Origin: Neglectibacter timonensis
Lineage (GTDB): Bacteria > Bacillota > Clostridia > Oscillospirales > Acutalibacteraceae
Assembly (NCBI RefSeq): GCF_900048895.1
Contig: NZ_LT160637.1
Span: 67,385-131,384, forward strand
Length of the DNA stretch: 64,000 nucleotides
Reading direction: 5' to 3'
Below, piece by piece: positions 35,703 through 64,000 of this stretch (positions are counted from its first letter, which is position 1; the number at the start of each line of letters is the position of its first letter). The position numbers and the translations under genes are program-made. A model generated the notes under the pieces. That model was not told the DNA's origin. It worked only from the letters and a program-made list of their open reading frames with translations, and made no database searches.

Positions 35703-36113
35703 TTATCGGGCTGGTTCCGCCTGCTTTCTGGCAGGCGGCAGCTCCCGGCAGTATTCCGGGTAACGGATTTTCATGCCCTCCATGAAATAGGGGGCAAACT
35801 CGCAGCAGAACAGATCTTCCGGGGAATAGGCGTTGCTGTGTTCCGGCTCGGTATAGCCGTTCCAAAGGTTAAAGGCCAAACGGCACACCCGGACGGTGCC
35901 GCTGGTCTGCCAACCGCCGTGCATACCCTCCGGTTTGATACAGTCCTGCTTGAAATCAAACATCTGGCGGATGTTGGCCCGTGTTTCCGGGGCAATCCCC
36001 ATGACATAAAAGAAAGACTGATGATAGCAGTCATTTTTCCGGGCCTCACTCATCATCCGCAAAAAGAAATCGCGGTGTTCTGCGGACGCAAACCGGATAT
36101 TGAGCCTGTTCAT
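35703..36113 (-). CDS. Small ICE protein (DUF6075-like)
   Basis: A 136-aa soluble protein with conserved aromatic blocks (FFLRMMSEARKNDCYHQSFFYVMG and VCRLAFNLWNGY) matching, as far as I can tell, the DUF6075 family common in Tn1549-type elements. Its ATG overlaps the VirB4 stop (ATGA), so it is translated with it. Function unknown. Confidence 0.65.
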   Translation of the reverse strand: MNRLNIRFASAEHRDFFLRMMSEARKNDCYHQSFFYVMGIAPETRANIRQMFDFKQDCIKPEGMHGGWQTSGTVRVCRLAFNLWNGYTEPEHSNAYSPEDLFCCEFAPYFMEGMKIRYPEYCRELPPARKQAEPAR

Positions 36114-38467
36114 ACCAAAACCTCCTCGCCGCCGAACACGCCCTCACCGGGCTTGGTGGTCATCAGGGCATACAGCTTTGTATTGCGCGGGAAACGGTTG
36201 ACAAAAGGCACCAGTGCGCTGCCGTAGCGGATGAGGCCGCAGCCCGCGTCCGCGTTGGTGACATAGCTCATCTGCTCCTTAGAGATATTGAGGAGCTTGG
36301 AGAGCTTTTCCCGGTCGGAAGCCGCCTGGTTGAGCATGACGATAAATTCCGAGTTACTGAGCATGGTGCTGGCCTGGACGGAATCCAAAAGGTACTCCAC
36401 GTTCTGGGTAATGGCCGTAGGATAAGCGCCGCGCTTTCTGAACTGCCGCCATGCGCTGTTAAAGAAAATACCGCTTTGCTCATTTTCAAACATCACATGG
36501 AACTCGTCGATAAAGACGTGGGTGCGCTTGCCTCGTTTCCAGTTGAGAGTCACGCGGTTCAAGATGGTGTCGGTGATGACGAGGGAACCGGCTGGCTTTA
36601 GCTGCTCGCCCAGGCCGTGGATGTCGAACACCACATAGGGCTTATTCAAATCCACCGTGCTGTCGCGGCCAAAGATGTCCAGGGAGCCGGTGGTGTAAAG
36701 CTCCAGGGAAAGGGCGATCTCCTTTGCCTTTTCCTCCGGCTGCTCCAGCAGCTTGTTCCGCAGGTCGCAGAGAGTGGCGGCCCGGCCCTCTTTTTCCGCC
36801 TCCGGGTAAACAAGGGCGGTGCAGCGGTCGATGATGGATTTATGCTGCGGCCCCACGCCGCGCTTGTCGATCTGCTCGATGAGGGACATAACAAACTGCG
36901 ACTTCTCCACAATGGGATTCTGCTCGCCGTAACCCTCCACCATATACATGGAATTGAGCTTGTCTTTTCCGCCTGCCACCAGGTGGGCCACCGTAGCCTT
37001 TTCGCGGCCCAGGGCTTTCACCAGTGCGCCAAACTCGCCCTCCGGGTCACAAATGAGGATTTCATCATTGGCGTAATTGGGATGGAGCATAAGGAAGGCG
37101 ATCAGCTCTTTCACCGCAAAAGATTTTCCCGCGCCGGGAACGCCCAGGTAAAAAGCCGACTGGTTTAACAGGTTCGCCTTGTTGCACATGATGAGGTTGT
37201 GGGAAATAGCGTTCTCCCCAAAGTAAATGCCGCCCTTGTCCTGGATCTCCTGCACCTTAAAGGGGATGAACACCGCCAAACTCTCGGTGGTGAGGGTACG
37301 GAAGGCGTTGATTTTGCGCACCCCAATGGGCAGGGCCGTGTTCAGCCCGTCAAGCTGCTGGAACTTGAGAACCGCAAGCTGGCACATATGCTTTCTTGCC
37401 ACGGAAAGCACCGCCTCGGTGTCACTGTCAAGCTGCTCCTTGGTGTCGGCGGTGATCGCCAGGGTAATCACCGCAAACATCATGCGCTGGTCACGGGTGG
37501 TGAGATCGTCCAGGAACTCCTTGCTCTCTTTGCGCTGAAGCTCCATGTCATAGGGCACCACGGCGGAAAAGTTGTTATTGGCATTTTGGCGTCTTTGCCA
37601 GTTGGTGATGTTCGTTTCCACGCCCAATAAGCGGTTTTCTACCTCCCGCACAGCCTCATCCGTAGGCACCGGAACCACGTCAATGGAGAACATCAGATTG
37701 CGGTTGAAATCCGTAAGCTCCGTCACCATGTTGTCCTTGATATAGCTGGCAAAATCCTTGAGGAACAACACCCGGCAAAACTTGTCACCCAGCTTCACAT
37801 AGTCGCTGTTCTTCTCCATGCTGTCGGGGCAGATATAGTCCTTGAAATCGTGGCCGCGCTTTGCCATAGCCGCCAAATCAAAGGAGAACTCTGCCTCCTC
37901 GCCCTGGCGGTAGAAATCGTGCAGGATACGTAGCCTTTCGGAAGCGTCCAGCTCCACGCACTTGGAACCCAGGGCGGCAAAGTGAGAAATGAGGTCGGCC
38001 CCCACGCGGGAAAAGTAGGCGCGGGCCTCCTCAATATCTTTCTTCACCACAGAGATGGTGATATATTTCTCCTGGGTGATTCCATTGGCCCCGGTGGCCT
38101 TATCGAGCAGCATTTGATTGTATTCCCTGCGGTACTCGTCCCGGAAGTCCTCCTGCATAGGCATGAGGATGGAGTTTTCAAAGTTTGCCTTATTCGTCCT
38201 CCGGTTGTTGATGGTGATTTTCGTCACCGCTCCAGAATCCAGGGAGTTGAGAAGCTCCGAGTAGATGAGGAACATACTCTCTTTATCCTCGCGGCTTGCC
38301 ACCAGATAATTGATGTCGCTGAACTGATAGGTTTTGGAGAACTTGTTTCCGGTCAAAAAAATGCCGTCCTGCCAGATACGGCGGACGGGGATCACATCCT
38401 GCACCTTCCGGGGTACGGTATATCGCTCCTTGTCCTGCTTGGACATGGTTTTCAACGTTTTAATCAT
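36110..38467 (-). CDS. virB4: VirB4-type conjugation ATPase
   Basis: A 785-aa cytoplasmic ATPase that powers the type IV secretion channel. N-terminal CagE/TrbE/VirB4 region (residues 1-400), Walker A GVPGAGKSF near 442, Walker B HVFIDEFHVMFEN near 652 and the downstream AITQNVEYLL motif. ATG overlaps the 3' end of the prgI gene by 8 bp, the standard order in Gram-positive T4SS clusters. Confidence 0.95.
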   Translation of the reverse strand: MIKTLKTMSKQDKERYTVPRKVQDVIPVRRIWQDGIFLTGNKFSKTYQFSDINYLVASREDKESMFLIYSELLNSLDSGAVTKITINNRRTNKANFENSILMPMQEDFRDEYRREYNQMLLDKATGANGITQEKYITISVVKKDIEEARAYFSRVGADLISHFAALGSKCVELDASERLRILHDFYRQGEEAEFSFDLAAMAKRGHDFKDYICPDSMEKNSDYVKLGDKFCRVLFLKDFASYIKDNMVTELTDFNRNLMFSIDVVPVPTDEAVREVENRLLGVETNITNWQRRQNANNNFSAVVPYDMELQRKESKEFLDDLTTRDQRMMFAVITLAITADTKEQLDSDTEAVLSVARKHMCQLAVLKFQQLDGLNTALPIGVRKINAFRTLTTESLAVFIPFKVQEIQDKGGIYFGENAISHNLIMCNKANLLNQSAFYLGVPGAGKSFAVKELIAFLMLHPNYANDEILICDPEGEFGALVKALGREKATVAHLVAGGKDKLNSMYMVEGYGEQNPIVEKSQFVMSLIEQIDKRGVGPQHKSIIDRCTALVYPEAEKEGRAATLCDLRNKLLEQPEEKAKEIALSLELYTTGSLDIFGRDSTVDLNKPYVVFDIHGLGEQLKPAGSLVITDTILNRVTLNWKRGKRTHVFIDEFHVMFENEQSGIFFNSAWRQFRKRGAYPTAITQNVEYLLDSVQASTMLSNSEFIVMLNQAASDREKLSKLLNISKEQMSYVTNADAGCGLIRYGSALVPFVNRFPRNTKLYALMTTKPGEGVFGGEEVLV

Positions 38468-40737: not shown

Positions 40738-41091
40738 TCAGCCGGTAATCAGGGTTAAGATTTCTTTAGCAAAGGTAATCACAACGCCGCCTGCCAAAGT
40801 GAGGAAGCCGTTGGCTCTCTGGCTGGGGTCATGGGATTTGAGAGAGAGGCCGATCTGCACCACGCCGAAGCCCAGCAGGATCATACCAATAGCCCGGATG
40901 AGGCCGAAAATGAAGTCGCTGAGGTTGTTGATAACCGTCAAGGGGTCGCTGGCAGCAAAGGCCGTGGTGGTGCAGCAGCACAGCATAAGCACCAGGGCCG
41001 AGTAGACGGTAAGGGCGCTTTTGCCCTTTTTGCTCATAGGCAGGCTGCGGGTTTCCTTGTTCTTCTTGCTTTCCTTGTTAAACAGTTTCAT
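40738..41091 (-). CDS. Maff2-family small membrane protein
   Basis: A 117-aa protein with two hydrophobic segments: residues of about 25-45 (VYSALVLMLCCCTTTAFA, possibly a cleaved signal) and two later helices (FIFGLIRAIGMILLGFGVV and GFLTLAGGVVITFA). Matches the Maff2 family found between VirD4 and VirB6 in Tn1549-type ICEs; probably VirB2/pilin-like in position, which is inference. ATG at 41091 lies inside the VirD4 3' end. Confidence 0.78.
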   Translation of the reverse strand: MKLFNKESKKNKETRSLPMSKKGKSALTVYSALVLMLCCCTTTAFAASDPLTVINNLSDFIFGLIRAIGMILLGFGVVQIGLSLKSHDPSQRANGFLTLAGGVVITFAKEILTLITG

Positions 41092-42898
41092 TTTGCTTTT
41101 CCTCCTTGAATTGAAAGATTTTCTCCATGTCCTCGTCGGACAGAAGCTCACAGGTCACATCCGGCTCCTTGAGATTTGCAAGGTCGCCGGGGGTAAGGCG
41201 GCTGATGGTCAAGCCCGCCACAGCGTTTTCCGTGCCGCCGTGGGCATAGGCTGGCGCGCCGCCATCGGTGGTGTATTTCACATTGGGGTGCTTTAGCAAT
41301 TCGTACTTTTCATCCATCAGCGGCGGCTCGCCCCGGATAAAGAGCAGGGCCAGGCGGTTGTCCAGCATACGCACCTCGTCCGGGGTCATCAGCTCCCGGC
41401 CCGTGATCTGGTTGTTGGTAGAGTAGCTGCCCGAATGGCCGGTACTCTTGCCGTAGGTGTCCAGCCAGAGGGTGCTTTTGCCCAGATAGCTTTCCGAGAT
41501 GAGCTTGTGGGTGGACGATTCGTTGCCGCCCAGGTAGAGAAATTCATCGCAGTTGCCCATGATGGATTCCCATTGTTTCTCGTACAGCGCCTTGAGCTGG
41601 GCGATGTTCTGGATGATGATGGACACAGAAATATTCCGTGAGCGCATGGTAGCCAGCAGCTTGTCGAAATCATCGGGCAGGCTGACATTGGCAAACTCGT
41701 CCATCAAAAAATGCACCGGCACAGGCAGGCTCCCGCCGTGTACCCGGTCGGCGCTGTAAAACAATTCCTGAAAGGTGCTGGCATACAAAAGGCTCACTAA
41801 AAAATTGAAGCTGGCGTCGTTGTCCGGGATGAGGGCAAAGAGCGCCACTTTCTTTTCCCCCAGGCTGGCAAGCTCCAGCTCGTCGGTGGCCGTGAGGGCC
41901 GCCACGGATGAAAGGTTGAACTTCTCCAGACGTGAAGCAAGCGTGATCTGGATGGATTTTAAGGTCTTGGCGCTGCCGGAGCGGTAGTCCTTGTAATACT
42001 TCACCGCGATGTGGTCGGGGGAGCGCATTTCCAGCCGTTCAAACAGCTCATCCAGCGGGGATTGATAGCTGTCGTCGTCCTCCCGCACCTCACCGGCCCG
42101 CAGCATTTCCATGACCATGGGGAAGTTTTTCTCGTCCTCCGGGGCCTCGTAGTGGAGATAGAACACCAGCGCCATAAGAAGCATACTGGCCGCCGTATCC
42201 CAGAAGGGGTCGTTTGACTGGCTCCCTTTGGGGGTGGTGGCTTTGAACAGGTTCGTCACCATCTTCTGCACATCGTTGTCGTTTTTCAGATAGGCAAAGG
42301 GGTTATAACAGTGGCTTTTGTTCATGTTCAAAAGGTCAACCACCTTAATCTCATAGCCCTGCCGTTCCAGCAGGCCGCCGCAGTCCCGCAGCAGCTCTCC
42401 TTTGCAGTCCAGGATGAAAAAAGAGGTGTTGGCCTGGCAGATATTGACCTTTGCATAAAAGCGGCTTTTTCCCGCGCCGCTGCCGCCGCAGACCAGGGTG
42501 TTTAACGTCCTGCGGTGCTTTTTCCCGTCCAGCCCCATGCGGACGTGCTGGGTAAAAATGCGGTTTTGAAACGGGTTTTTATCCCGGTATTTCCGGTTCA
42601 CGGCCCGCGGATCGCCCCATTTGGCGGAGCCGTGTTCCTCGCCCCTGCGGTAGTTGCGCCTGGATGAGAGGTAAATGCCAATGCCCAGCCCGTAGGCGGC
42701 AATAAAAATGAGGACAGTTTTTACACTGTCCTCACACCATGCAATCTGAAAGGGATGGTTCATTGCCGCAGGCAGGGCCTCCAGGATTTCGGAAAGCCCC
42801 CCGGAAAGAGAGGGCGCAATGAGCAGGGCAAGCCAGACTGCCGGGATCAGCCCCAGGGCATAGAGCCAGGGGCCTCCCGTTTTGTTATCGGGCTTCAT
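41078..42898 (-). CDS. virD4: VirD4/TraG-type coupling ATPase
   Basis: A 606-aa type IV coupling protein that passes the relaxase-DNA complex to the channel. Two N-terminal membrane helices (about residues 10-30 and 58-78), Walker A GGSGAGKSR near 137, Walker B FLMDEFANV near 398, and the QN-containing SIIIQNIAQLKALYE motif. ATG at 42898 is chosen over upstream frames because it overlaps the preceding small gene by 14 bp with a usable SD inside it. Confidence 0.93.
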   Translation of the reverse strand: MKPDNKTGGPWLYALGLIPAVWLALLIAPSLSGGLSEILEALPAAMNHPFQIAWCEDSVKTVLIFIAAYGLGIGIYLSSRRNYRRGEEHGSAKWGDPRAVNRKYRDKNPFQNRIFTQHVRMGLDGKKHRRTLNTLVCGGSGAGKSRFYAKVNICQANTSFFILDCKGELLRDCGGLLERQGYEIKVVDLLNMNKSHCYNPFAYLKNDNDVQKMVTNLFKATTPKGSQSNDPFWDTAASMLLMALVFYLHYEAPEDEKNFPMVMEMLRAGEVREDDDSYQSPLDELFERLEMRSPDHIAVKYYKDYRSGSAKTLKSIQITLASRLEKFNLSSVAALTATDELELASLGEKKVALFALIPDNDASFNFLVSLLYASTFQELFYSADRVHGGSLPVPVHFLMDEFANVSLPDDFDKLLATMRSRNISVSIIIQNIAQLKALYEKQWESIMGNCDEFLYLGGNESSTHKLISESYLGKSTLWLDTYGKSTGHSGSYSTNNQITGRELMTPDEVRMLDNRLALLFIRGEPPLMDEKYELLKHPNVKYTTDGGAPAYAHGGTENAVAGLTISRLTPGDLANLKEPDVTCELLSDEDMEKIFQFKEEKQNETV

Positions 42899-43082
42899 CA
42901 CGCCGCTTCGCTTTCCTGTCTTTTTGGGATGGGGCGTCAATGGTTTTGAGAAGCACGTCCTCCACCGGGCCGGGGTCGCGCTGTTCCTCCAGCAGATCGT
43001 TTCGCAGTTCGTTGAGGGCGCGGATCATAATGCCATGCTCGTATCTGTCCAGCGTGAGGACAACCTTTTCCTGTCGTTCCAT
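42885..43082 (-). CDS. Small charged ICE protein, unknown
   Basis: A 65-aa highly charged protein (VVLTLDRYEHGIMIRALNELRNDLLEEQRD then a Lys/Arg tail), overlapping the VirD4 start by 14 bp, in the position of the small genes that precede VirD4 in related elements. It looks helical; function unknown. Confidence 0.6.
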   Translation of the reverse strand: MERQEKVVLTLDRYEHGIMIRALNELRNDLLEEQRDPGPVEDVLLKTIDAPSQKDRKAKRRDEAR

Positions 43083-44845: not shown

Positions 44846-46282
44846 TCATCTCCTTTCCAGCCGTTTCCTCCGGCCTTGTTCCTCGCGGGTTTTCTCTGTT
44901 TTTCCAGCCTGCTGTTCCTCGCGGGCAGCCCGTATCTTTTCTTTGAGGGAGAGGGAGCGCGCCGCAATGTCCTCACACAGCTTCACCTCCCGGCGCAGGG
45001 CTTTGATCTGCGCAGAAAGGGCGGAAACCTCCGCCCGGATTTGTTCCTGCCGGGCAGGGTCGGCAAGCGCCTCCTTGGTGCGCAGCTTCCGGTACAGGTT
45101 TTTCCGCTGTTCGGTCAGGCTGACAAGCCGGGCTTCCACATCCGATTGGTAGGCGCTGAGTTGCTCCAGGGTGTCAACGCGCTGGCGGGAAAGCAGCCTT
45201 GCCTCGTCCGTCAATTCCTCTGCCCGGATCAAGTCATTCCGCAGCGCGTGGGGCACATGGCCCCGCTGCCGGTTCTGCTTTTGGGGGAATACCCCTAAAA
45301 GGTAGCAGTAGTGGAAGTAGAGGGCGCGAAAGCCCGTGACCTTCCTGGCCTGCTTCAAGTCCCCCAAAAGCCTGCACCGCCTCGGCTCCGGCGTTTCCAC
45401 CCTCTGAGGGCGGCGCTGGGCCAGAATCCGTTTGCGGATGTTCTCCAGAGAGTAGTCCTCGCCTAAATTGCGCACCAATTTCCTGCCATGGGGCCGGTCG
45501 TAAGGGCGCACCGTGATGTCTTTCCCCACCTTGATGTCGTAGCCCATCTGCCGCAGGCGGTAAAAAAACTGCCTCTCCGTCATCGACTGGCGGATGGCAG
45601 CGTCTACATCGGCTTTGATGAGGGAGAGATAAGTGGGGCGGCCCTCCTGCTCGGCCCGCCATTCCCCGTAGTGTTTGGATTTTCCACGCTTTGGATTTTC
45701 AATGACAGAAAGCCCATACTCCCGGCACAGCCGGTCAGATTCCCTCTGCATGTCGAAGTAATCCTTTTCCGTGCGGTGGTATTTGATCCCGTCGAGAAAC
45801 GAAACCGTGTTCACCACAAAATGGTTGTGCAGGTGGTGGGCCTTGTCTAAATGGGTGGCAACCAGCACCTGGTATTTCTCGCCCCACAATGCCTTTGCCA
45901 GCTTCAGCCCGATCTCGTGGGCCATTTCCGGGGTGGCCTCGCCGGGGGCAAAGCTCTGGTAGCCGTGGTAGGCTACGGTGCCTTCCTCCTTGCCGAACCG
46001 CTTTTTGACGGCGATCATCTCATCGCGGGCGGTGGTGGGGCTGCAATTCACCCCGGACACAAACCGCTGCATGACGGGCACATCCTCATCGTCCACCGCA
46101 ATCTTTCCCGTTTTCTTCTGCTGGACGGCGTACTCAATCACATCGGAGAGGCCCTGGGCCTCCTTGCCGTCCATGCCCTGTTTCTCGTAGGCGGCAGGGT
46201 TTTCGGTCTTATCCGGGTTTTCGATATAGATGAGAACCTTGCCCAGCCAGCCGTTCACCCGCCAGATAGACGTGGTAGCCAT
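44846..46282 (-). CDS. Relaxase (MobA/VirD2-like nuclease)
   Basis: A 478-aa nicking enzyme for conjugative transfer. The N-terminal 300 residues hold the relaxase fold with the metal-binding His cluster HLDKAHHLHNHFV near residue 150 and an early Tyr-rich region (LIYIENPDKT, VIEYAV) containing candidate nucleophiles. The C-terminal 120 residues form a coiled coil (SAQIKALRREVKLCED). It resembles the relaxases of Tn1549-type ICEs. It is translated right after MobC (4 bp gap) and next to the candidate oriT. Confidence 0.92.
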   Translation of the reverse strand: MATTSIWRVNGWLGKVLIYIENPDKTENPAAYEKQGMDGKEAQGLSDVIEYAVQQKKTGKIAVDDEDVPVMQRFVSGVNCSPTTARDEMIAVKKRFGKEEGTVAYHGYQSFAPGEATPEMAHEIGLKLAKALWGEKYQVLVATHLDKAHHLHNHFVVNTVSFLDGIKYHRTEKDYFDMQRESDRLCREYGLSVIENPKRGKSKHYGEWRAEQEGRPTYLSLIKADVDAAIRQSMTERQFFYRLRQMGYDIKVGKDITVRPYDRPHGRKLVRNLGEDYSLENIRKRILAQRRPQRVETPEPRRCRLLGDLKQARKVTGFRALYFHYCYLLGVFPQKQNRQRGHVPHALRNDLIRAEELTDEARLLSRQRVDTLEQLSAYQSDVEARLVSLTEQRKNLYRKLRTKEALADPARQEQIRAEVSALSAQIKALRREVKLCEDIAARSLSLKEKIRAAREEQQAGKTEKTREEQGRRKRLERR

Positions 46283-50473: not shown

Positions 50474-53400
50474 TCAACGCTCCAATCCCACAACCTTCCG
50501 TTCCGGGACTTCTTCGCCCTCATCGGGAACGCTGTCAATGAGCGTCTTGTCTTTCTCATCCACTTTCAGCAGGACGTTCAGTTCATTCAATCGGGCGGTT
50601 TTTTCCGCCAGCTCCTCCTCGCGGGCAAAGGGCGCGCCCAATTCAGCGCGGGCATTTTCAAGCTGCCCTTTTGTTTCCTCCAGGCTGCTTTGCTCTGCCT
50701 GCAAGCTCCCCGCAAGGTTTTCAAGGGCATTGTCCAGACGGGCGATATTGCCGAACACATCCGCGCCCAGCGTCACCGTATGGGAGAGGGTGCCTTTCAG
50801 GGTAATGCGGTACTCGTTGCTGATACCATCATAGGCCAGCACCATGGAAAAGCCCCTGTATTCTCCCAGCAAAACCGCGTCGGAGCCAGTCATTTTGCTG
50901 CAAACGTCGATGATAGCTTTGCCAGCGTCCTCTTTTTCGGCATACTGTTTGCCCTCGATCACCATGCCGCAGAAGCCCTCTTGACCTTTCGGATGGGCGG
51001 CTGCCAGCGCCACATCCTTCTCATAGCCCGCAATCCGTTCTGTAATCCGAGCGATGTCTGCCGGGTATTCGCGCAGCACCAGCTCCTCCAGGGAATACCG
51101 CTGATTGAGATAGCTGGCCTTGAGCATATTGAGCTTTGCCACCTCCATATCCAAATTGCATTTTTCAATGATGAGAGGGTTGCCGGTGGCCAGCGCCTTG
51201 ATCTCGGAATAGCTGAGGGCCGTTTCGTCCACATCCTCTGCCACTCGGACAGGGGCCTTGCTGGTCATGATCTGAGCAATGAATTTCTGCTTGTTTTCCA
51301 CAAGCTGGTAAAGGTAAGCGTCAAACGTACCCTCGGTTACATAGCGGAAGATTTCCACCTCCTCGTTTTCATTCCCCTGACGGACAATACGGCCCAGCCG
51401 CTGCTGAAGGTCGGAAGGCCGCCAGGGGCAATCCAGATCGTGCAGGGCGATCAGCCTGTCCTGTACGTTAGTGCCAGCGCCCATCTTCTGAGTGCTTCCC
51501 ATCAGCACTCGTATCTGCCCGGCACGGACTTTCGCAAACAGCGCCTTCTTTTTTACCTCACTGTCGGCGTCATGGATGAACGCGATCTCATCCTCCGGGA
51601 TACCCTGCTCCATGAGCTTCTTTTTCAGATCGTCATATACGTTGAAAGAGCCGTCTTTGGTGGGCGTGGACAGATCGCAGAATACAAGCTGGGTCGAACG
51701 CTGTTCTTTGGTCTGTTCCCAGATTTTGTAGACGTTCCGGGCGCAGACAGCCACCTTGCCGTTTGGGTCGTCGGCAGCCAGCGGGTTGATAAGACGCATA
51801 TCCAGGGCCAGCTTGCGCCCGTCATTGGTAATGCGCAGCATATTGTCCACATGGGGGTCAACGCCTCCATCCCGGATTTTTTCCGCCCGTTCCGCCAGCC
51901 CTTTCACCATCTCCTGCTGAAGCTCGGACGGCTTGATAACCTCTGTGTGAAAGTTGGCCTTTGGCACGGGAAGATGGAGCATATCTGCCGTCTGGATGTC
52001 GGCCACCTGTTTGAAAGCGGCCATCAGCTCCGGCAGATTGAAAAACTTGGCAAACCGGGTCTTGGCCCGATAACCGGTGCCTTCCGGGGACAGCTCGATG
52101 GCGGTGATGGTTTCTCCAAAGTCGCTGGCCCAATCGTCAAAATGGATGAGGCCCATTTCCTGCAACAGCCCGTACTGCAAATACCGCTGGATGGTGTAAA
52201 GCTCCACCATACTGTTCGAGATGGGGGTGCCTGTGGCAAAAATTGTGCCGCGCCCTCCGGTGAGTTCATCCAGATAGCGACATTTCATAAAGAGGTCGGA
52301 ACTTTTCTGCGCTTCGGTCTGGGCGATCCCGCCTACGTTGCGCATTTTCGTCATTAAAAAGAGGTTCTTAAAATAATGGCTCTCATCCACAAACAGGCGG
52401 TCAACGCCGAGCTGCTCAAACGTCACCACATCGTCCTTGCGGCTCTGGTCGTTCAGTTTTTCCAGCTTTGCCTCTAAGGATTTCCGGGTGCGCTCCATCT
52501 GCTTGACGGTGTAGCGTTCCGCCTTCTGTGCTTTGGCCTGTTCAATGCCAAACAGGATTTCATCAATCTGCTGCTGTAAAATGGCCTGCTGGCGCTCGGC
52601 GCTCATGGGGATTTTCTCAAACTGGCTGTGGCCGATGATAACCGCGTCATAGTCGCCGGTGGCAATACGGCTGCAAAACTTCTTGCGGTTTTGTGTTTCA
52701 AAGTCTTTTTTCGTAGCAACCAGAATATTGGCGCTGGGATAGAGCTGGAGCCATTCCGCCGCCCATTGTTCCGTGAGATGGTTTGGCACCACCACAAGCG
52801 ACTTGGTGCAAAGCCCCAGCCGTTTCATCTCCATGGCGGCGGCCACCATTTCAAAGGTTTTGCCCGCGCCTACCTCGTGAGCCAGCAGGGTATTCCCGCC
52901 GTACATAACATGGGCGATGGCATTGATCTGGTGGGGCCGCAGCGTAATTGCCGGGTTCATGCCCTCGAAACGGATATGCTGGCCGTCGTATTCACGGGGA
53001 CGGCTGGAATTGAAGGTTTCGTTGTAGATGGCGCACAGCCGTTCCCTGCGGTCGATGTCTTTCCAAACCCACTCGGAAAACCTCTGCTTGATAAGCTCCT
53101 GCCTGTCCTGGGCGATAGCGGTTTCTTTTTTGTTGAGAACCGGCTTTTTATTGCCATGTTCGTCCTCGATATAATCAAAAACCCGCACATCCTTCTGGTT
53201 CAGGGTTTGCTCCAGGATGTGGTAGGCGCTCATGCGCTTGGTGCCGTAGGTGGTGTTAGCCTTGACATTGGCCCGGTCAAAGTTTTTCTCGGTGATATTC
53301 CACTGGCCGGTGGACTCGGAGCGCAGGATTTTGATACGATTCTGGGCCTGCCCATAGGGAGTGAGCAGCTCCACCATAAACTGCTGATATACGTCGATAG

Positions 53401-56400
53401 GAACCCAATTCGCGCCAATACGCACACCGATCTCCCCAGCGCCCAGGTCGTGAGGCTGGACAGCCTCCAAAGCCTCCACCTGTTTACGGGCGGCTGCCTT
53501 TTGGCTGTCCGGGGCCGCCTCCAGAAAGGCTTTTGCCATCCGCAGCTTGCGGCGTACATTCCCCGAAAGGTATTCGTCCGCCGTCACGGGGGAAAAGGCT
53601 TGCAGGCTGAGGGAAGCTCCCCGCAGCCTGTCCGGGTTTTCCGGGCCTTCGATGTTGCGGAAAATCACGCCGGAAAGCTCGGCCTCCAGTTCCTCCGGGG
53701 ATTTGCCGGAAAGCTGGGCCATATACTCCATGTCTACACGGGCTTTCTCTGCAATCGAAACAGCCAGGGCCTCGCTGGCGGTGTCCACGCTGGTCACAGC
53801 CACATGGGGCCGGATGGTGCGTTTGGTGAACATATCCGTTTTTCTTTTTAGGCTGCCATCTTCGTCCAGCACCTCCAGAGAACACAAAAGGCAATAGCTG
53901 GAGTCCTCCGAAAAGGCCAGTTTATTGCCCCGGCTGCTGATAAGGCCGTATTTTTTTGTGAAGCTGTCATACAGGGTATTGAGCTTTGCCTGCTCCTCTT
54001 TGACGTCTGCGTCCGGATAGCCTTCGGTCTGGTAGTCGATGAGCCGGCGCACACATTCCCGCAGCTCGATCATGCCCCGGATTCGGTTTTCCGCCGTCAC
54101 GGATACCTCCAAAGGGTGCATACGGCTGTTTTCCCGATAGTACACCTGTCCATCCACAACGGTATAACTAAAGTTCCTGACATTCGGGTCGGCGGGGATG
54201 GAGCGGTCTTCCTCCTCGTCCAGTTCCTCCAGCTCGTAGGGCTTGATCTCCGCCTGCAAAAACTGGACGGCTTCGGCAAGCAGCTCTGACAGGTCGGCCC
54301 CCTCGCGGGCTTTGCAGGCGCTGTCCGGGCCAAACCGCGTGGATTCCATCACCATGTCGCCTAAAACCATCTCCGGGTGCTGCACAAAATAGCTGTTCAT
54401 GCGGATGCCGTTTTCATCCGTATCCAAATGCAGCCAATCCGGCTCCAAATCCGTGATATGGTCGCGCTTTTGCAGAAAGAGGATGTCGCTGGTGACTTTT
54501 GTTCCGGCATTTTGCTTGAAGGTGTTGTCCGGCAGGCGGATAGCGCCAATCAAATCGGCGCGCTGGGCCAGATATTTGCGGACGGCAGAGTTTTCCTTGT
54601 CCATGGTTCCCTTGCTGGTAACAAAAGCAATAACCCCTCCGGGCCGCACCTTGTCCAGCGCCTTCCCAAAGAAATAGTCGTGGATGAGCCAGTGGTGCTT
54701 GTCGTACCGCTTATCTATCACCTTGAAATCCCCAAAGGGGACGTTGCCCACCGCTACATCAAAGAAGCTGTCGGGCATTTGCACCTTTTCAAAGCCGTTC
54801 ACGGAAATGCTGGCATTCTGGTAAAGCTGCTGGGCGATTCTGCCGCTGATACTGTCCAGCTCCACACCGTAGGTTTTGCTGCCTGCCATATCTGCCGGGA
54901 GAAGCCCCAAAAAGTTGCCGGTGCCGCAGGATGGCTCTAAGATATTGCCCTGCTGGAAGCCCATCTGGGAGAGAGCCTTGTAGATTCCCCGGATGACAAC
55001 GGGCGGGGTATAAAAGGCGGTGAGGGAGCTGGCCCTTGCCGCCGCGTACTCGTCCTCGTCCAAAAGGCTTTTCAGTTCCTGGTAATGGGGGCTGGTTTCT
55101 TCAAAGCAGTCCGCAAGGCCACCCCAGCCCACATAGCGGGATAGCGCCTCCTGTTCTTCCGGGGTAGCCAGCCGTTCCTCGGCCTCGATCTGCTTCAAGG
55201 TACGGATGGCGGCTGCGTTAGCTGCATATTTTTCGCTGGGTGTGCCATGCCCCAGGGCGTCATCAGTGATATGAAAATCATGGCGCTGTTCCCTGGGGAT
55301 TTCCGGGTGTAGAGGGGCAAAGGTCACGCGCTCACGGCGGGGGCGCTTGGGCAACTGCGGGAGCATTCTTTCTTTTAGAGGTTGTAATTCTGCCTGTTCC
55401 TCTGGGGAGAGAGCCTGTGCAGCTTGCTCGATTGCATATTGATTGGGGAAGTTCCTGAAAACGCACAGCCATCTGTTTTCATGAATGTCATAGACGGCAG
55501 CGCCCTCGTAGGCAAAGTCGCTTTCCCCCTCCATAACGCCGTCCACATACTTCTGTGCAGCCTGTTCCGCTTCTGCAAGCGTTTGATACCTCTGCTTGTC
55601 TACAAACCCTTTCTCCTCGTTAGGATACACGACTACTTGATAAGGCGGGGCCATCAGGCGGTCATAGCGCCCTATATCCTCCGGGGCAAGCCATTCCGGT
55701 TTTTCAGGGAGAGCAGCATATAATTCCCGCATTTTATCAAGATGCGTTCTTACATATCCAGACCAAAGGTGCTTTTCCGCCCGTTTGCCAGCCCCCAGAA
55801 AGTAATCGCAGTCGGCTTTTAGGCGGCTCAACAGCCGGTAATTCTCCTGAGAAGCCGGATCACCGTTAAAAATGTGGATGGATTCCAGTTCTTCCTCTGA
55901 AGCAGAGATAAGGTTATCAAAGACCAGTTCCTCCAGCTCGTTTTGGATGAGTTCCTCCAGGCTCTTGTACTGCCTGCGCTCCAGGAATTCGCCGTTCAGA
56001 TACCTCTCTATGCGGAAGTTGACCAGATCAGCGTTGACCTGGATGGGGATTTTCTCATCTGTAATAGTGGTGTAGGCAAGACCCACATTCCCCAGGTCGC
56101 TGAAATCAGCAGGCTCGTTGTATTCATCCTCACAAAACTCGTTAATCAGATCCTTTGCCTTTTCCAGAAGTTCTGTATCCGGTTCCTCTGTCAAAAACTC
56201 ACGCTCAATAAAGCCTGCAATTTCCCGGTTGCTTCCTTCGCCTCCGTGGGCTTGGTATTCGGCAATGCCGTCTGCGATCAATTCTTCGGAAGCCACAAAC
56301 CCAGCTTCTTCCAGATACCCCGCAATTTCTTCCCGCTGGGCCTGTTCCGGGGTGAGTGCCGGGGGCAGCTCCTCCATTTCTTCTATACAAAGGGTGATGT

Positions 56401-59400
56401 CTGCCGCGATTTCTTCCTCCGGGTCGGCATGGTCGAGGAAAGATTGCAGAAGCCTTCGGATTTCCTCACGCCGGGCCGGGTCATGGAGCTGTTCTGCAAT
56501 GGTTTCTACTGCCTGCGCGTCGGTATCCCCATAGCCCATCCGGGAGCCGTCAAACTCGCCAATAAAATACAGCACTTGGGCCGCCAGCTTGGAATAGGGG
56601 TCTGCGGCTTCTTCTTTTTGGGGTGGTTCCTGCACTTTGGGCGGCGTGTGAAACACGGGCGCGTCCTGAGTGGCGGAAACCGTCATTTCTGAGGTGTCGG
56701 CAATATGCTGAATCTGATCCCGCACCGTCTGGGGCATTTCCTCATCATAAAATTGCACGGTGCGGTCGGGGGCGATATGGGCCACCGTTTTGTAATCCCC
56801 GTGTTCTTCCTCCAGCCTGTTCCAGACAGTGAGGCCGTTCCCCAGATGTCCATAGCCCAGGTCATAGGCTTTTTCCGGGGGCATGGCGGGGGCCGCAGGC
56901 TCCTTGTGTTCCGCAAAGAGGGTAAAAGTACCCTGCCGGAACGCAGAAAGGTTTTCAAAGGCTGTTTGCCGCCACTTATACATCCGGTCGTCCTGCGGGG
57001 TGGCTTCCCACACCGGCACCATCATCTGGTAGATTTCCTCCACGCGGGCCGGGTCGTCAAGCTGCGGCTCGATGAGCTTCACCGCGTCCCAATAGTCAAA
57101 GCCAAACGGATAGGGGTGCGGCTGCTCCTGGGGTACGTTCTCAAAGAAAGTGTGGATGTTCCGGGCAAGCTGGTGTTTTTCATACTGCGGCATAGCGGCC
57201 CGGTCATCCTCGGATAAAAACCGCCCCTGGGCGATCATGGCGCTGACGCGCTTTTCCACCGCGTTCCATTTCAGCTCCACCTTGGCGTAAGGCTCTGTGA
57301 TACTGCCATGGCTGAAATGGACGCCCTTGCCGGGCTGATAGGTCACGTTGTCATTTCCGCCATGATACCCGCTGTATTCCCCATGGTAATTCTTTAAGAA
57401 ATCCTCGCGCTCCCTGCGGTCTGTGTGGTTGCGGTAAAAGGAATACACTGCCAGCCGGTAGTCGGTGCTGCGTTTTCCTCCGCGCAAAAGTCTGTCAATC
57501 TCATCCATGGAGATATACAAACGCCGCTGAGGGTCATAACTTTCAGCGGCGGTAAAGTGCAGAGGTTCCCGCTGTAAATCTGTAAGCTGTGCTTGCAGCA
57601 CAAGAGGCCGATAAAAACGGAAACGCAGAATGTCCGGGTTATCCTGATAGGCTGCGGCAAACGCTTCATATTCGGAGAGGATGGCCTGTAAGCTATCTTC
57701 CCGGCCTAACAGCCCTGCGATTTCCTCCACTGCCTCCGGGAATCCACCTGGTTTATCATAGATGGCTCGCAATGAGGGGAAAAACCGCTTTTCTTCATCC
57801 TCAATGTCACGGAACATCAGCAGCAGCCGGTCGGCCAGGTCATGGATTTCATAGTGATCTACTTGGTCAAGCTCGCTCTGGGGCATATACCGCCCCAGCT
57901 CCAGCAGTTCCCGGATACGGGCTGCCGCCTGTTCCCAGGAGATAAGCGTGGCGCTGGAACCCTGGGCGCTCTCGCCCCCGGCTATGCGGATTCCTTCGGC
58001 ATTGTACCAGACAGCATACTTGCGCCCATCCAGACAGAAGCCCGCGCCGTTTTCCCCATAGTGTTCTGCAAGGAAACGGGCGTTGTCTGGCTTATCCTTT
58101 TTGAAATAGGCGCAGATGGTGAGGCGGCTGTTCTCATGGTTGGAGCCGATACAAAGTGCCTCATCGATCACCTGCTGGGGCAGCGCATGAGAAAAGAGGG
58201 AAATCTGGTTTCCGCCTTCCGACTGCGGCTGGCTGAAAACTCCAAAATCAAAGAGGGACATCTGCTGGCCCTCCTGTGTGGGGAGCTTGCGGATGTCCGT
58301 CTGGATAAAGTATTCTTTTTTGTCGATGAGCTGGGCTGTCCATTCCGCCACCAAACCCCAGGAAAACACGGCTTCTTTGGTGCGAGATGGGTAAGAGCCT
58401 TCCCACATGAGCAGCCCGTCCTCCTGCGGCTTATACCCCAGGCGCTGCCCATCTGCAATGATTTCGGTGTACCTGTCCTGGTAAGCCGTTTTCAGATAAT
58501 CGGCCCGTTCCTGCGTATCCTGGTGGACGGAGAAGAAAAGCTCGATCTGCTGTTTCTTATACTTGAGGTCATCGTCCTTATTGGCGATAACGGCCATGAT
58601 CTGCTTTTCATCCAAAAAAGCGGGCAGCTCTGGGCTGTCCGCTTCCTCTGCATTTAGGGTGCTGGGCTGTTCCGGTTCGGAAATTAGTTGTAAATCAGCT
58701 CTTTCAGTATGATCTCCTCCGCTGCGTTCTGAAGGTTGTTCATCAGCCCTACCCACTTCATCGGGTCGCGCTCCTTCAGCTCCTCCGTCACGCCGTTCTC
58801 TTTGGCCATCTGTGTCACCATCTGCTCCATCTGGCGCTGGGCCGTCTGCTCGATCTCCGCCAGATGGCTGGAGAGCTGCCCGCTGGTCAACAGGTTCGTG
58901 TAGGTGATCCTGCGGTGTTCTTTCAGAAACTTCTTCCGAAGCAATGCGTATTTCCCAGAGGGAGCCTCCGGCTCCTGCGGGGGCAGAAGGTTCGGCAGGT
59001 TGTAGTCGCCCTGTCTCGTGTATGTGATCCCGTTCATTCTCAAAACTCCTTTCTGACGGCTGGTTTCTCTGTTCAGTTACAGCATACTGGATTTGCGGCT
59101 GGCCTGCAAATGTGCGATTCTCTTTTTGGGGCTGTCTTTGCAGGGCGAGGACGGTGCGGGAAATCTCGGAAAGGCACATCTGGGAGATGTCGCCGGTGGC
59201 CACGCCCAGGGCGTTGAGGGTTTCCGGCGTGTTAAAATTCAGCACATCCCGGAAATCCTCATCCTCAAAGGTTCCGGCAGGGTCAAGGCCGCAGCGCACC
59301 ATGAGCATATATCCAATGCTGTTTTCCAGGGCCTTGCGGTACAGGACTTCCACGTTGTATTCGTCCAATTCCTCTAAAAAGCTGCCTTCCGTAACGGTTT

Positions 59401-59884
59401 TCAGTTCGGAGAGGTAGTCCTGGATGTTATCCTCCACTGCGTTTTTCGCCGCAGAGAGCAGGGCCGCGCCCAAATCCTCCTTATGCTCCAGCTCGCCAAA
59501 GCTGTTCTCCAGCGTTTCGATGATTTCCGGTTCATATTCCGGCCTCACAGCCCAAAGAGGGATGGACTGGGGGAAGTTCCCCTCATGGGTGTCGGAAATG
59601 TCAAAGTAATATTTCAGCCGGGGCCTGCCCGTATGCTCGCCGTCAAAAACAGCAATGCCATTCGCGCCCCGGTTTACCCAGCGCCCAAACCGTTTATTCC
59701 ATCGCTCGATCTCCAGGACGGCGGTGGCGTCCGGGCGCTGGGCATAGACAAGCAACTGCTCATCAAAGGAAAGACGGTAGTTGCGGCAGGCTGAGGCAAG
59801 AAATGCCTGCCACTGTGCCGGAGCTGTCACACTTCGCTGGGTTTCATGGTACAGCTCCGTCAATGCTTTGTATCGTATCGCCAT
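50474..59884 (-). CDS. Giant SNF2-type helicase / N6-DNA methylase-like ICE protein
   Basis: A 3136-aa protein, the largest in the window. N-terminal region related to LtrC-type ICE proteins (FDEQLLVYAQRPDAT), a hydrophilic low-complexity linker (about residues 280-410), several domains of unknown function, then an N6-methylase-like Rossmann region with an NVPFG motif (near 1713, an NPPY relative) and a superfamily 2 helicase with Walker A HEVGAGKT (near 2339), DESHYFKN (near 2500) and the QQRLGRIVRQG arginine finger (near 2826). A coiled-coil tail ends it. Widespread in Tn1549-type ICEs; perhaps protects or processes incoming DNA. ATG at 59884 follows AGGAGGTG. tnpV lies inside the linker in another frame. 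Confidence 0.9.
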   Translation of the reverse strand: MAIRYKALTELYHETQRSVTAPAQWQAFLASACRNYRLSFDEQLLVYAQRPDATAVLEIERWNKRFGRWVNRGANGIAVFDGEHTGRPRLKYYFDISDTHEGNFPQSIPLWAVRPEYEPEIIETLENSFGELEHKEDLGAALLSAAKNAVEDNIQDYLSELKTVTEGSFLEELDEYNVEVLYRKALENSIGYMLMVRCGLDPAGTFEDEDFRDVLNFNTPETLNALGVATGDISQMCLSEISRTVLALQRQPQKENRTFAGQPQIQYAVTEQRNQPSERSFENERDHIHETGRLQPAEPSAPAGAGGSLWEIRIASEEVSERTPQDHLHEPVDQRAALQPSGGDRADGPAPDGADGDTDGQRERRDGGAEGARPDEVGRADEQPSERSGGDHTERADLQLISEPEQPSTLNAEEADSPELPAFLDEKQIMAVIANKDDDLKYKKQQIELFFSVHQDTQERADYLKTAYQDRYTEIIADGQRLGYKPQEDGLLMWEGSYPSRTKEAVFSWGLVAEWTAQLIDKKEYFIQTDIRKLPTQEGQQMSLFDFGVFSQPQSEGGNQISLFSHALPQQVIDEALCIGSNHENSRLTICAYFKKDKPDNARFLAEHYGENGAGFCLDGRKYAVWYNAEGIRIAGGESAQGSSATLISWEQAAARIRELLELGRYMPQSELDQVDHYEIHDLADRLLLMFRDIEDEEKRFFPSLRAIYDKPGGFPEAVEEIAGLLGREDSLQAILSEYEAFAAAYQDNPDILRFRFYRPLVLQAQLTDLQREPLHFTAAESYDPQRRLYISMDEIDRLLRGGKRSTDYRLAVYSFYRNHTDRREREDFLKNYHGEYSGYHGGNDNVTYQPGKGVHFSHGSITEPYAKVELKWNAVEKRVSAMIAQGRFLSEDDRAAMPQYEKHQLARNIHTFFENVPQEQPHPYPFGFDYWDAVKLIEPQLDDPARVEEIYQMMVPVWEATPQDDRMYKWRQTAFENLSAFRQGTFTLFAEHKEPAAPAMPPEKAYDLGYGHLGNGLTVWNRLEEEHGDYKTVAHIAPDRTVQFYDEEMPQTVRDQIQHIADTSEMTVSATQDAPVFHTPPKVQEPPQKEEAADPYSKLAAQVLYFIGEFDGSRMGYGDTDAQAVETIAEQLHDPARREEIRRLLQSFLDHADPEEEIAADITLCIEEMEELPPALTPEQAQREEIAGYLEEAGFVASEELIADGIAEYQAHGGEGSNREIAGFIEREFLTEEPDTELLEKAKDLINEFCEDEYNEPADFSDLGNVGLAYTTITDEKIPIQVNADLVNFRIERYLNGEFLERRQYKSLEELIQNELEELVFDNLISASEEELESIHIFNGDPASQENYRLLSRLKADCDYFLGAGKRAEKHLWSGYVRTHLDKMRELYAALPEKPEWLAPEDIGRYDRLMAPPYQVVVYPNEEKGFVDKQRYQTLAEAEQAAQKYVDGVMEGESDFAYEGAAVYDIHENRWLCVFRNFPNQYAIEQAAQALSPEEQAELQPLKERMLPQLPKRPRRERVTFAPLHPEIPREQRHDFHITDDALGHGTPSEKYAANAAAIRTLKQIEAEERLATPEEQEALSRYVGWGGLADCFEETSPHYQELKSLLDEDEYAAARASSLTAFYTPPVVIRGIYKALSQMGFQQGNILEPSCGTGNFLGLLPADMAGSKTYGVELDSISGRIAQQLYQNASISVNGFEKVQMPDSFFDVAVGNVPFGDFKVIDKRYDKHHWLIHDYFFGKALDKVRPGGVIAFVTSKGTMDKENSAVRKYLAQRADLIGAIRLPDNTFKQNAGTKVTSDILFLQKRDHITDLEPDWLHLDTDENGIRMNSYFVQHPEMVLGDMVMESTRFGPDSACKAREGADLSELLAEAVQFLQAEIKPYELEELDEEEDRSIPADPNVRNFSYTVVDGQVYYRENSRMHPLEVSVTAENRIRGMIELRECVRRLIDYQTEGYPDADVKEEQAKLNTLYDSFTKKYGLISSRGNKLAFSEDSSYCLLCSLEVLDEDGSLKRKTDMFTKRTIRPHVAVTSVDTASEALAVSIAEKARVDMEYMAQLSGKSPEELEAELSGVIFRNIEGPENPDRLRGASLSLQAFSPVTADEYLSGNVRRKLRMAKAFLEAAPDSQKAAARKQVEALEAVQPHDLGAGEIGVRIGANWVPIDVYQQFMVELLTPYGQAQNRIKILRSESTGQWNITEKNFDRANVKANTTYGTKRMSAYHILEQTLNQKDVRVFDYIEDEHGNKKPVLNKKETAIAQDRQELIKQRFSEWVWKDIDRRERLCAIYNETFNSSRPREYDGQHIRFEGMNPAITLRPHQINAIAHVMYGGNTLLAHEVGAGKTFEMVAAAMEMKRLGLCTKSLVVVPNHLTEQWAAEWLQLYPSANILVATKKDFETQNRKKFCSRIATGDYDAVIIGHSQFEKIPMSAERQQAILQQQIDEILFGIEQAKAQKAERYTVKQMERTRKSLEAKLEKLNDQSRKDDVVTFEQLGVDRLFVDESHYFKNLFLMTKMRNVGGIAQTEAQKSSDLFMKCRYLDELTGGRGTIFATGTPISNSMVELYTIQRYLQYGLLQEMGLIHFDDWASDFGETITAIELSPEGTGYRAKTRFAKFFNLPELMAAFKQVADIQTADMLHLPVPKANFHTEVIKPSELQQEMVKGLAERAEKIRDGGVDPHVDNMLRITNDGRKLALDMRLINPLAADDPNGKVAVCARNVYKIWEQTKEQRSTQLVFCDLSTPTKDGSFNVYDDLKKKLMEQGIPEDEIAFIHDADSEVKKKALFAKVRAGQIRVLMGSTQKMGAGTNVQDRLIALHDLDCPWRPSDLQQRLGRIVRQGNENEEVEIFRYVTEGTFDAYLYQLVENKQKFIAQIMTSKAPVRVAEDVDETALSYSEIKALATGNPLIIEKCNLDMEVAKLNMLKASYLNQRYSLEELVLREYPADIARITERIAGYEKDVALAAAHPKGQEGFCGMVIEGKQYAEKEDAGKAIIDVCSKMTGSDAVLLGEYRGFSMVLAYDGISNEYRITLKGTLSHTVTLGADVFGNIARLDNALENLAGSLQAEQSSLEETKGQLENARAELGAPFAREEELAEKTARLNELNVLLKVDEKDKTLIDSVPDEGEEVPERKVVGLER
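58684..59037 (-). CDS. tnpV: TnpV-family protein encoded inside the helicase gene
   Basis: A 117-aa protein in a different frame of the same strand, entirely inside the helicase coding region. It matches the TnpV family of clostridial transposons: MNGITYTRQGDYNLPNLLPP, KYALLRKKFLKEHRRITYTNLLTSG, LAEIEQTAQRQMEQMVTQMA and DPMKWVGLMNNLQNAAEEII. ATG at 59037 has its own AAGGAG 8 bases upstream. In the helicase frame the overlap (about codons 282-400) is low-complexity Glu/Arg/Gly/Asp-rich linker, which tolerates double coding. Function of TnpV is unknown. Confidence 0.8.
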   Translation of the reverse strand: MNGITYTRQGDYNLPNLLPPQEPEAPSGKYALLRKKFLKEHRRITYTNLLTSGQLSSHLAEIEQTAQRQMEQMVTQMAKENGVTEELKERDPMKWVGLMNNLQNAAEEIILKELIYN

Positions 59885-59904
59885 CGGTTGCACCTCCTTT
59901 TTTG

Positions 59905-63131: not shown

Positions 63132-64000
63132 TTATTCAGCGGATTTGTTACCCTTTTTTCTCTTGTTCACATATCCCAGAATACCCAGCGTGGCAGCGCC
63201 CGCAGCGGACACGCCCATGAGGGCCATCCAAAGCCACGGCTTGCTGTCATCGCCGGTTTTCGGTGTGTCGCGCAGTTCATTGTGCATTTGCGCCACAGTG
63301 GTCTTATCCGCCAGGATTGTCACCGTCTTATCCGCAGGCAGCACATAGCTGGCGCTGGCCCCGTCCGACACCTCGGACACGGTGTAATCGCCTACGCGCA
63401 GGCCCTCGATGTGGATTTCACCGTTTTTATCGGTTTTGAAGGTCTGGTCGTAACCGTTCGCGCCCGTCACGCGGAAGGAGAAGCCCTCCACCTTGCCGTC
63501 GCTGGATGTCTTTTCAATCCGCAGGGAGCCGGTCTGGGCCGCGTTGACAAAGCCTTTTCCGGCCTCGTTCTCTACCTCGTAGATTTTGCCGTGTTCGGCG
63601 ATCTCCACATAGTAGGCGTTTTCATCCAGCAGGAAGCCCTCCGGCGCTTTGGTTTCCTTTACGAACACGCCGCCGTAGAGGATATGGGCCATCTCATAAA
63701 TGCCGGTGCTGGTTTCCTCCATCTTGCCCAGCAGTTCGTCGCCCTCGTCCAGCTCCTTATTTCCATTGGTATCGCGGTACACCTCGAACTCGGCCCCGGT
63801 GAGCTTGTTGTCCGGGTAGTCCTTATCCACTTTCGTGAGCCGCAGGTTGCCGTAAATGCGCTCGTTGGCAAGGGAGATTTCCACTACCTGCCCATCTTCC
63901 TCCACAGTGACGGGGATGACCTCATCAGAGAGAATGAAGCCTGCCGGGCTTTCCAGCTCTTTTAATACCCAATCCCCAAAAGGCACATCCGCGAAAGAGA
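63132..64000 (-). CDS. SpaA-type collagen-binding-like surface adhesin, C-terminal part
   Basis: The 3' part of a surface protein whose 5' end lies beyond the window (frame open through 64000). It shows repeated SpaA/prealbumin-like beta-sandwich modules (NLRLTKVDKDYPDNKLTGAEF, GSLRIEKTSSDGKVEG) with the Lys and Glu residues that form isopeptide bonds in this family. The anchor follows: RDTPKTGDD sorting motif, a hydrophobic helix (LWMALMGVSAAGAATLGILGY) and a KRKK tail. TPKTG matches the (S/P)PxTG class of motifs used by class B sortases in C. difficile rather than LPxTG. Likely displayed on the surface and able to aid attachment during transfer. Confidence 0.85.
   Translation of the reverse strand, partial: SFADVPFGDWVLKELESPAGFILSDEVIPVTVEEDGQVVEISLANERIYGNLRLTKVDKDYPDNKLTGAEFEVYRDTNGNKELDEGDELLGKMEETSTGIYEMAHILYGGVFVKETKAPEGFLLDENAYYVEIAEHGKIYEVENEAGKGFVNAAQTGSLRIEKTSSDGKVEGFSFRVTGANGYDQTFKTDKNGEIHIEGLRVGDYTVSEVSDGASASYVLPADKTVTILADKTTVAQMHNELRDTPKTGDDSKPWLWMALMGVSAAGAATLGILGYVNKRKKGNKSAE

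Follow-up and report, generated by a model that had tools for sequence, protein, structure and literature searches.

A genuine tnpV gene is, with high probability, nested in the +1 frame within the gene of a conjugative DarB-like helicase, in an old arrangement in which both frames would be read and the two proteins co-produced. This is our best explanation for two overlapping open reading frames (ORFs) in a 64,000-nucleotide stretch of Neglectibacter timonensis contig NZ_LT160637.1 (positions 67,385 to 131,384 of the forward strand), referred to here as the window; coordinates are those of the window unless a locus is named. Two independently recognisable protein families share this DNA across deeply diverged elements, and relatives exist in which tnpV lies outside the helicase gene or is missing. 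Because of this sharing and of the un-nested relatives, the origin, cost, and release of the overlap are directly testable.

A tnpV gene within a DarB-like helicase gene

The tnpV coding sequence occupies 58684..59037 on the minus strand and specifies 117 amino acids and a stop. It matches the Pfam TnpV profile (PF14198) over its full length (profile positions 1-111 of 111) with 147.8 bits and an E-value of 1.4e-43, the cut-off being 27; the scan was run from a TTG at 59043, and the 117-aa product is counted from the ATG. The ribosome-binding site AAAGGAG (59046..59052, minus strand), itself within the helicase gene, precedes the ATG by 8 nt, and the same site is present in the near-identical locus L003. 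Relative to the helicase, tnpV is read in the +1 frame, its ATG beginning at the middle base of a helicase codon. Alignment of nested and standalone TnpVs revealed an MKWVGxMNN-type core, in which M93, K94, W95, V96, M99, N100, and N101 are invariant in 53/53 sequences; this core is missing from the diverged upstream copy in locus L253. The profile match, the AAAGGAG site, and the uninterrupted ORF bear out the initial annotation, which had described a 117-aa TnpV protein with its own SD sequence and ATG inside a 3136-aa helicase.

The host gene (50474..59884, minus strand) encodes, from its ORF and Pfam matches, a 3136-aa DarB-like adenine methylase/SNF2 helicase. Its ORF is stop-free over 50474-59893 (minus strand), giving 3139 aa from an alternative GTG at 59893 and 3136 aa from the ATG at 59884. 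Upstream of the overlap lies a conserved N-terminal domain (59066..59857) for which a Pfam search gave no match; defined by alignment, it scores 405.5 bits over residues 13-276 against our own profile, of which the window sequence is one of 16 rows. Downstream, on the same minus strand, Pfam identified an LPD11 domain (55652..55849, E 5.9e-28), an N6 adenine methylase domain (N6_Mtase; 54461..55051, E 6.1e-10), an SNF2-related helicase domain (SNF2-rel_dom; 52364..52897, E 5.6e-11), and a helicase C-terminal domain (Helicase_C; 51374..51688, E 3e-06). A MobA/VirD2-like relaxase (44846..46282, E 8.1e-37), a VirD4-type coupling protein (41078..42940, T4SS-DNA_transf, E 1.1e-57), and a VirB4/TraG-type ATPase (36110..38467, P-loop_TraG, E 6.2e-07), all Pfam matches on the minus strand, share the window with the helicase, indicating a conjugative element. 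The gene thus has the organization of DarB-like proteins, an adenine methylase fused to an SF2/SNF2 helicase on a conjugative element. Elsewhere on the minus strand, near the mobile-element genes, 47146-48543 encodes a 465-aa protein with a Cro/C1-type helix-turn-helix and a weak, below-cut-off HipA-like C-terminal match, and 63132-63986, upstream of the helicase region, encodes a SpaA-type prealbumin-fold protein that runs off the window end.

The two products of the overlap differ sharply in their predicted structures. AlphaFold2, given 53 TnpVs, modeled a beta hairpin and five helices with a pLDDT of 88.3. For the first 560 helicase residues, the model has ordered domains on either side of residues 262-424 (58622..59110, minus strand), which are predicted to be disordered (pLDDT <50, near 30); helicase residues 286-403 (numbering from 59893) overlap tnpV. 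The stretch had been read earlier as low-complexity linker in the helicase frame, and the models agree with that reading: the same DNA apparently encodes a folded TnpV and a disordered helicase linker. Searches of TnpV against the PDB, by sequence and by fold, and against a viral fold library gave no significant match, which does not by itself imply a new fold; no Xis was among the PDB sequence and fold matches, an absence that excludes nothing. The TnpV model weakly matched part of the large phage protein Q8W6J4 in the viral library (TMq 0.49, rmsd 3.0, E 0.18).

Distribution of the nested arrangement

A TnpV scan of a genome collection yielded 212 relatives, the best 80 of which were analyzed. 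For 67 of the 80, the frame offset by two bases from that of TnpV contains no stop and forms part of a longer ORF, mostly of 1000-3200 aa and in some cases ended by a contig edge, while the remaining frame contains 7 to 25 stops. The other 13 are standalone genes with 2-8 stops in the frame that corresponds to the helicase's. TnpV matches were found in 20/299 phylum genomes and 140/391 class genomes, with weak matches followed up in 40 genomes and each genome search covering at most the best 30 loci, strongest matches first.

Since a definition of nesting by an open frame is partly circular, the frame was fixed by the helicase N-terminal domain instead. Its profile, built from 16 sequences, was searched against 291 class and 299 phylum genomes and the loci already collected, and matched in 77/291 and 22/299 genomes, respectively, again with no more than the 30 best loci taken from each search. 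Among the 163 loci retained (domain ≥60 bits and spanning at least 100 positions), TnpV lies ≤700 bases downstream of the domain in 161 and in the +1 frame in 160; the remaining one, L067, shows a break upstream and carries TnpV in the +2 frame. An open helicase frame runs from the N-terminal domain through the whole of TnpV in 159/161 loci, or 130/132 distinct TnpV DNA sequences, the exceptions being L067 and L184, which has one stop inside the overlap. These loci contain repeated sites, and thinning to <80% N-terminal identity leaves 77, with a +1 TnpV in 74. From the comparisons among TnpV copies, L002 (the window site itself), matches spanning <85 profile positions, and identical proteins were dropped beforehand. 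Together with the 11 stops in the third frame of the same strand in the window copy, the same-frame placement in 160/163 loci argues that the overlap is not due to chance. Stop codons in the tnpV frame of relatives, the sign that would have spoken against a real gene, were also looked for, and the frame is kept open.

The nested arrangement extends to very diverged TnpVs, which score 24-58 bits and are in the same +1 frame. In a quick tree of the helicase N-terminal domain, nested TnpVs occur on both sides of the midpoint split, and TnpV distances co-vary with those of the domain (Mantel Spearman 0.744, 74 rows, 0/999 shuffles as high). Sequence comparison thus suggests that the arrangement is old and was passed on, and co-diverged, with the helicase. 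The earlier proposal of gene capture in the linker holds in one respect, as the evidence strongly supports dual coding in a tolerant linker; a local capture does not fit nesting on both sides of the split. Two relatives (L024 and L056) come from metagenome bins labeled Alphaproteobacteria and Bacteroidales, possibly as mis-binned contigs. In Streptococcus phage phi-SsuZKB4_rum (L174:3006-3346), a tnpV in two pieces lies between an SNF2 gene and tet(O).

Helicases that lack the nested gene provide a natural comparison for the overlap. L253 (4907-13467) has an intact 2683-aa helicase ORF without a nested TnpV and carries a diverged tnpV 92 bases upstream, and L254 has a 3143-aa helicase ORF and no significant TnpV match on its 18.8-kb contig. 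Both have a much shorter linker than the nested helicases: the gap between the N-terminal and downstream profiles is 53 residues in L253 and 33 in L254, versus, by arithmetic to the same profile point, ~106 in the smallest nested case. This mildly favors gain or loss of a whole unit, and more than TnpV differs in these two helicases, because the first part of the downstream region is also missing.

Non-nested TnpVs of ≥60 bits, fragments included, generally stand apart from any helicase: 65/67 have no helicase remnant in the DNA tested, the exceptions being L184 and L141 (the L253 site). The window's own genome has a second, standalone tnpV (L001:1492-1902), whose 3.3-kb locus contains no helicase remnant. 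A tree of 107 TnpVs, rooted only at the midpoint and with few columns and long branches, requires 12 nested/standalone changes, at least 5 of which are forced by well-supported forks. tnpV can therefore sit inside or outside the helicase gene, and the helicase can lack it inside; where the N-terminal domain occurs, the nested state dominates.

Selection on both frames and origin of the overlap

In the overlap, TnpV codon position 3 coincides with helicase codon position 1, and TnpV position 2 with the helicase wobble base. At fourfold sites of the helicase frame within the overlap, 48/1542 positions changed versus 399.9 expected from the flanks, and all 38 disjoint pairs were lower. TnpV-frame fourfold sites changed at 279/1368 positions versus 385.9 expected, with 31/38 disjoint pairs lower (sign p 1.2e-4); the same within-gene comparison was also made in pooled bins. 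The far lower variation of helicase wobble sites in the overlap than in the flanks indicates purifying selection on the TnpV frame. A scan of the whole helicase in 17 pairs showed a single deep trough at TnpV, with values of 0.022-0.035 in the four windows inside it; in the 144 windows outside, the minimum was 0.168 and the median 0.32. The constraint matches the TnpV codon pattern, with changes falling at TnpV third positions. By the fourfold counts and the scan, the TnpV frame dominates and the constraint on the helicase frame is mild, so that the proposed test of codon-position constraint came out positive for both frames, strongly for TnpV and mildly for the helicase.

Synonymous shuffles of 25 nested copies (<55% identical) predicted 69 helicase-frame stops, and none was seen. 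This zero is built in, as the copies had been picked as open, and the 163-locus count is the unbiased figure; the predicted 69 should moreover read ~59, because 90 neighboring control ORFs fall to 0.86 of the shuffle expectation. Two further tests were set aside. At equal protein identity, nested copies had fewer fourfold changes than standalone ones at 0.55-0.92, with the order reversed in the two closest bins (22 and 21 nested pairs, only 3 and 2 standalone pairs). Because of this reversal and of a difference in third-position GC (0.71 nested versus 0.49 standalone), the identity-matched comparison was dropped in favor of the within-gene control. Codon usage was too weak as a frame test, favoring the TnpV frame in 62/100 cases.

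Start signals were compared with those of the surrounding DNA, using open copies with a match that starts at profile position 3 or earlier. The start codon (111 ATG, 1 TTG) stands behind a ribosome-binding match of ≥4 nt in 112/112 distinct nested copies, and the SD sequence reaches ≥5 nt in 105/112, commonly as AAAGGAG at 8 nt. In flanking helicase DNA, a match of ≥4 nt precedes 22.6% of 2662 same-frame ATGs, and one of ≥5 nt precedes 5.4%; the comparison slightly flatters the nested copies, for which the best of several nearby starts was taken, each control ATG being scored alone.

How the overlap arose admits two accounts. The somewhat likelier one, at a little less than an even chance, is that tnpV landed by insertion in a short helicase linker and subsequently lost its helicase-frame stops, which would make the present linker the newer, overprinted peptide. 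In its favor, the gaps of L253 and L254 are narrow, most of the constraint is carried by the TnpV frame, codon usage leans weakly the same way, and the helicase linker is predicted to be disordered. However, 54 standalone copies average 5.5 stops in the frame that the helicase needs, so a fresh insertion would break the helicase. Moreover, on the helicase tree the un-nested L207/L254 falls on a long branch among nested helicases, which looks like loss, although this placement is unsure, and L253 and L254 differ by more than TnpV, the start of the downstream region being missing as well.

Alternatively, TnpV may have arisen by overprinting in the +1 frame of the linker and become a standalone gene through several later escapes, a course that we consider plausible but less probable than insertion. 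Consistent with it, the most diverged TnpVs placed are among the nested ones, which occur on either side of the helicase midpoint split, the TnpV tree forces repeated changes of state, and TnpV resembles no solved structure significantly in sequence or fold. Against it, the TnpV tree is rooted at the midpoint only, linkers without TnpV are much shorter, and standalone genes bear no excess of openness in the helicase-type frame. The last point comes from a 'fossil' test of escape, in which 40 thinned standalone copies (of 57) had 0.83 of the shuffle expectation of stops versus 0.86 for the 90 neighboring ORFs (p = 0.50), a result that speaks neither for nor against escape. Somewhat more tentatively still, overprinting in a DarB-like helicase's disordered linker may have given rise to the TnpV family as a whole, which would then have left the linker on several occasions. 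If true, the helicase linker would be a nursery of a folded, exportable gene family.

Proposed expression of the overlap and comparison with known systems

Whatever its origin, we propose that the nested pair most likely works as follows. Ribosomes from the helicase start would read the overlap as a predicted disordered linker of ~163 residues, while others, initiating at the internal AAAGGAG/ATG, would make the folded 117-aa TnpV off the same mRNA. We infer this internal translation from the conserved start signals and the selection on the frame. The TnpV frame would be dominant, with the helicase frame mainly kept open and its residues mildly constrained, and nested and separate states would have interchanged several times. 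The likely advantage is a fixed co-production of TnpV with the helicase in a transfer operon, where TnpV may act as an accessory factor of element mobility.

A different reading is that the helicase is not read through, the N-terminal part and the rest being separate products with an incidentally open frame between them. The gene table of NZ_OY725736 (L170:3022-6348) gives it some color, as it lists TnpV and begins the helicase only ~1.9 kb downstream, although no stop interrupts the frame there from the N-terminal domain onward. The S. suis plasmid pID32563 (L171) is annotated the other way round, with one 7.3-kb helicase gene across the overlap and no TnpV; since the helicase frame is both open in nearly all loci and constrained, we regard separate products as very improbable. 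Least probable of all is a tnpV frame that is never translated, a remnant kept by chance or as an RNA or DNA element: long mechanical ORFs do arise in the helicase gene, as its antisense ORFs of up to 555 aa demonstrate, but the constraint tracks the TnpV codon pattern, the protein aligns with standalone TnpVs, and its start signals are conserved. Two such antisense ORFs, of 555 and 407 aa, lie on the plus strand at 50690-52357 and 52628-53851; they are probably by-products of base composition, because there is no deep synonymous trough outside TnpV.

Under the preferred reading of a nested gene with both frames translated, the two tables illustrate an annotation trap, in which one of two overlapping genes is lost or shortened. 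Both come from PLSDB, whose tables are incomplete by its own account; other records of this DarB-like helicase family may be shortened likewise.

The host gene has close counterparts in the DarB-like polyvalent proteins (PMC5512222), which share the adenine methylase-SF2/SNF2 helicase fusion, an LPD domain, and the setting on a conjugative element. The word TnpV does not occur in the main text of that paper, and the parts of it covered here describe no nested gene. TnpV itself is known from the mobile elements Tn4451 and Tn6104, where, in the sections consulted (PMC3158075), it is a separate ORF beside a recombinase, whereas here it lies inside a helicase gene; an excision (Xis-like) role has been postulated for the Tn4451 protein. 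According to the portions of PMC9815147 available to us, elements that have inserted into snf2 genes in S. suis bring their own tnpV, a hint that its role is linked to the helicase or to mobility generally. The TnpV literature covered in part here, including work that pairs TnpV with Tn4451, helicases, or overlap, contains no description of the nesting of TnpV in a helicase; nested genes as such are already known, and within this literature the TnpV/helicase pair is not described. One known case, as far as the source's covered text goes, is nog1 in citC of E. coli (PMC4683798), also a non-trivial bacterial overlap; nog1, however, is a recent orphan in the -2 frame, whereas tnpV is widespread and on the same strand as its host. 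The closest working parallel that we found, in the covered parts of PMC12915044, is comS in srfAB of Bacillus subtilis, likewise a small protein encoded in a different frame of a very large gene and in the same operon, where mutations silent in srfAB told the functions of the two genes apart. That account concerns ComS in one system; TnpV, in contrast, belongs to a family that also lives alone, and its nesting recurs across diverged loci and is absent in some.
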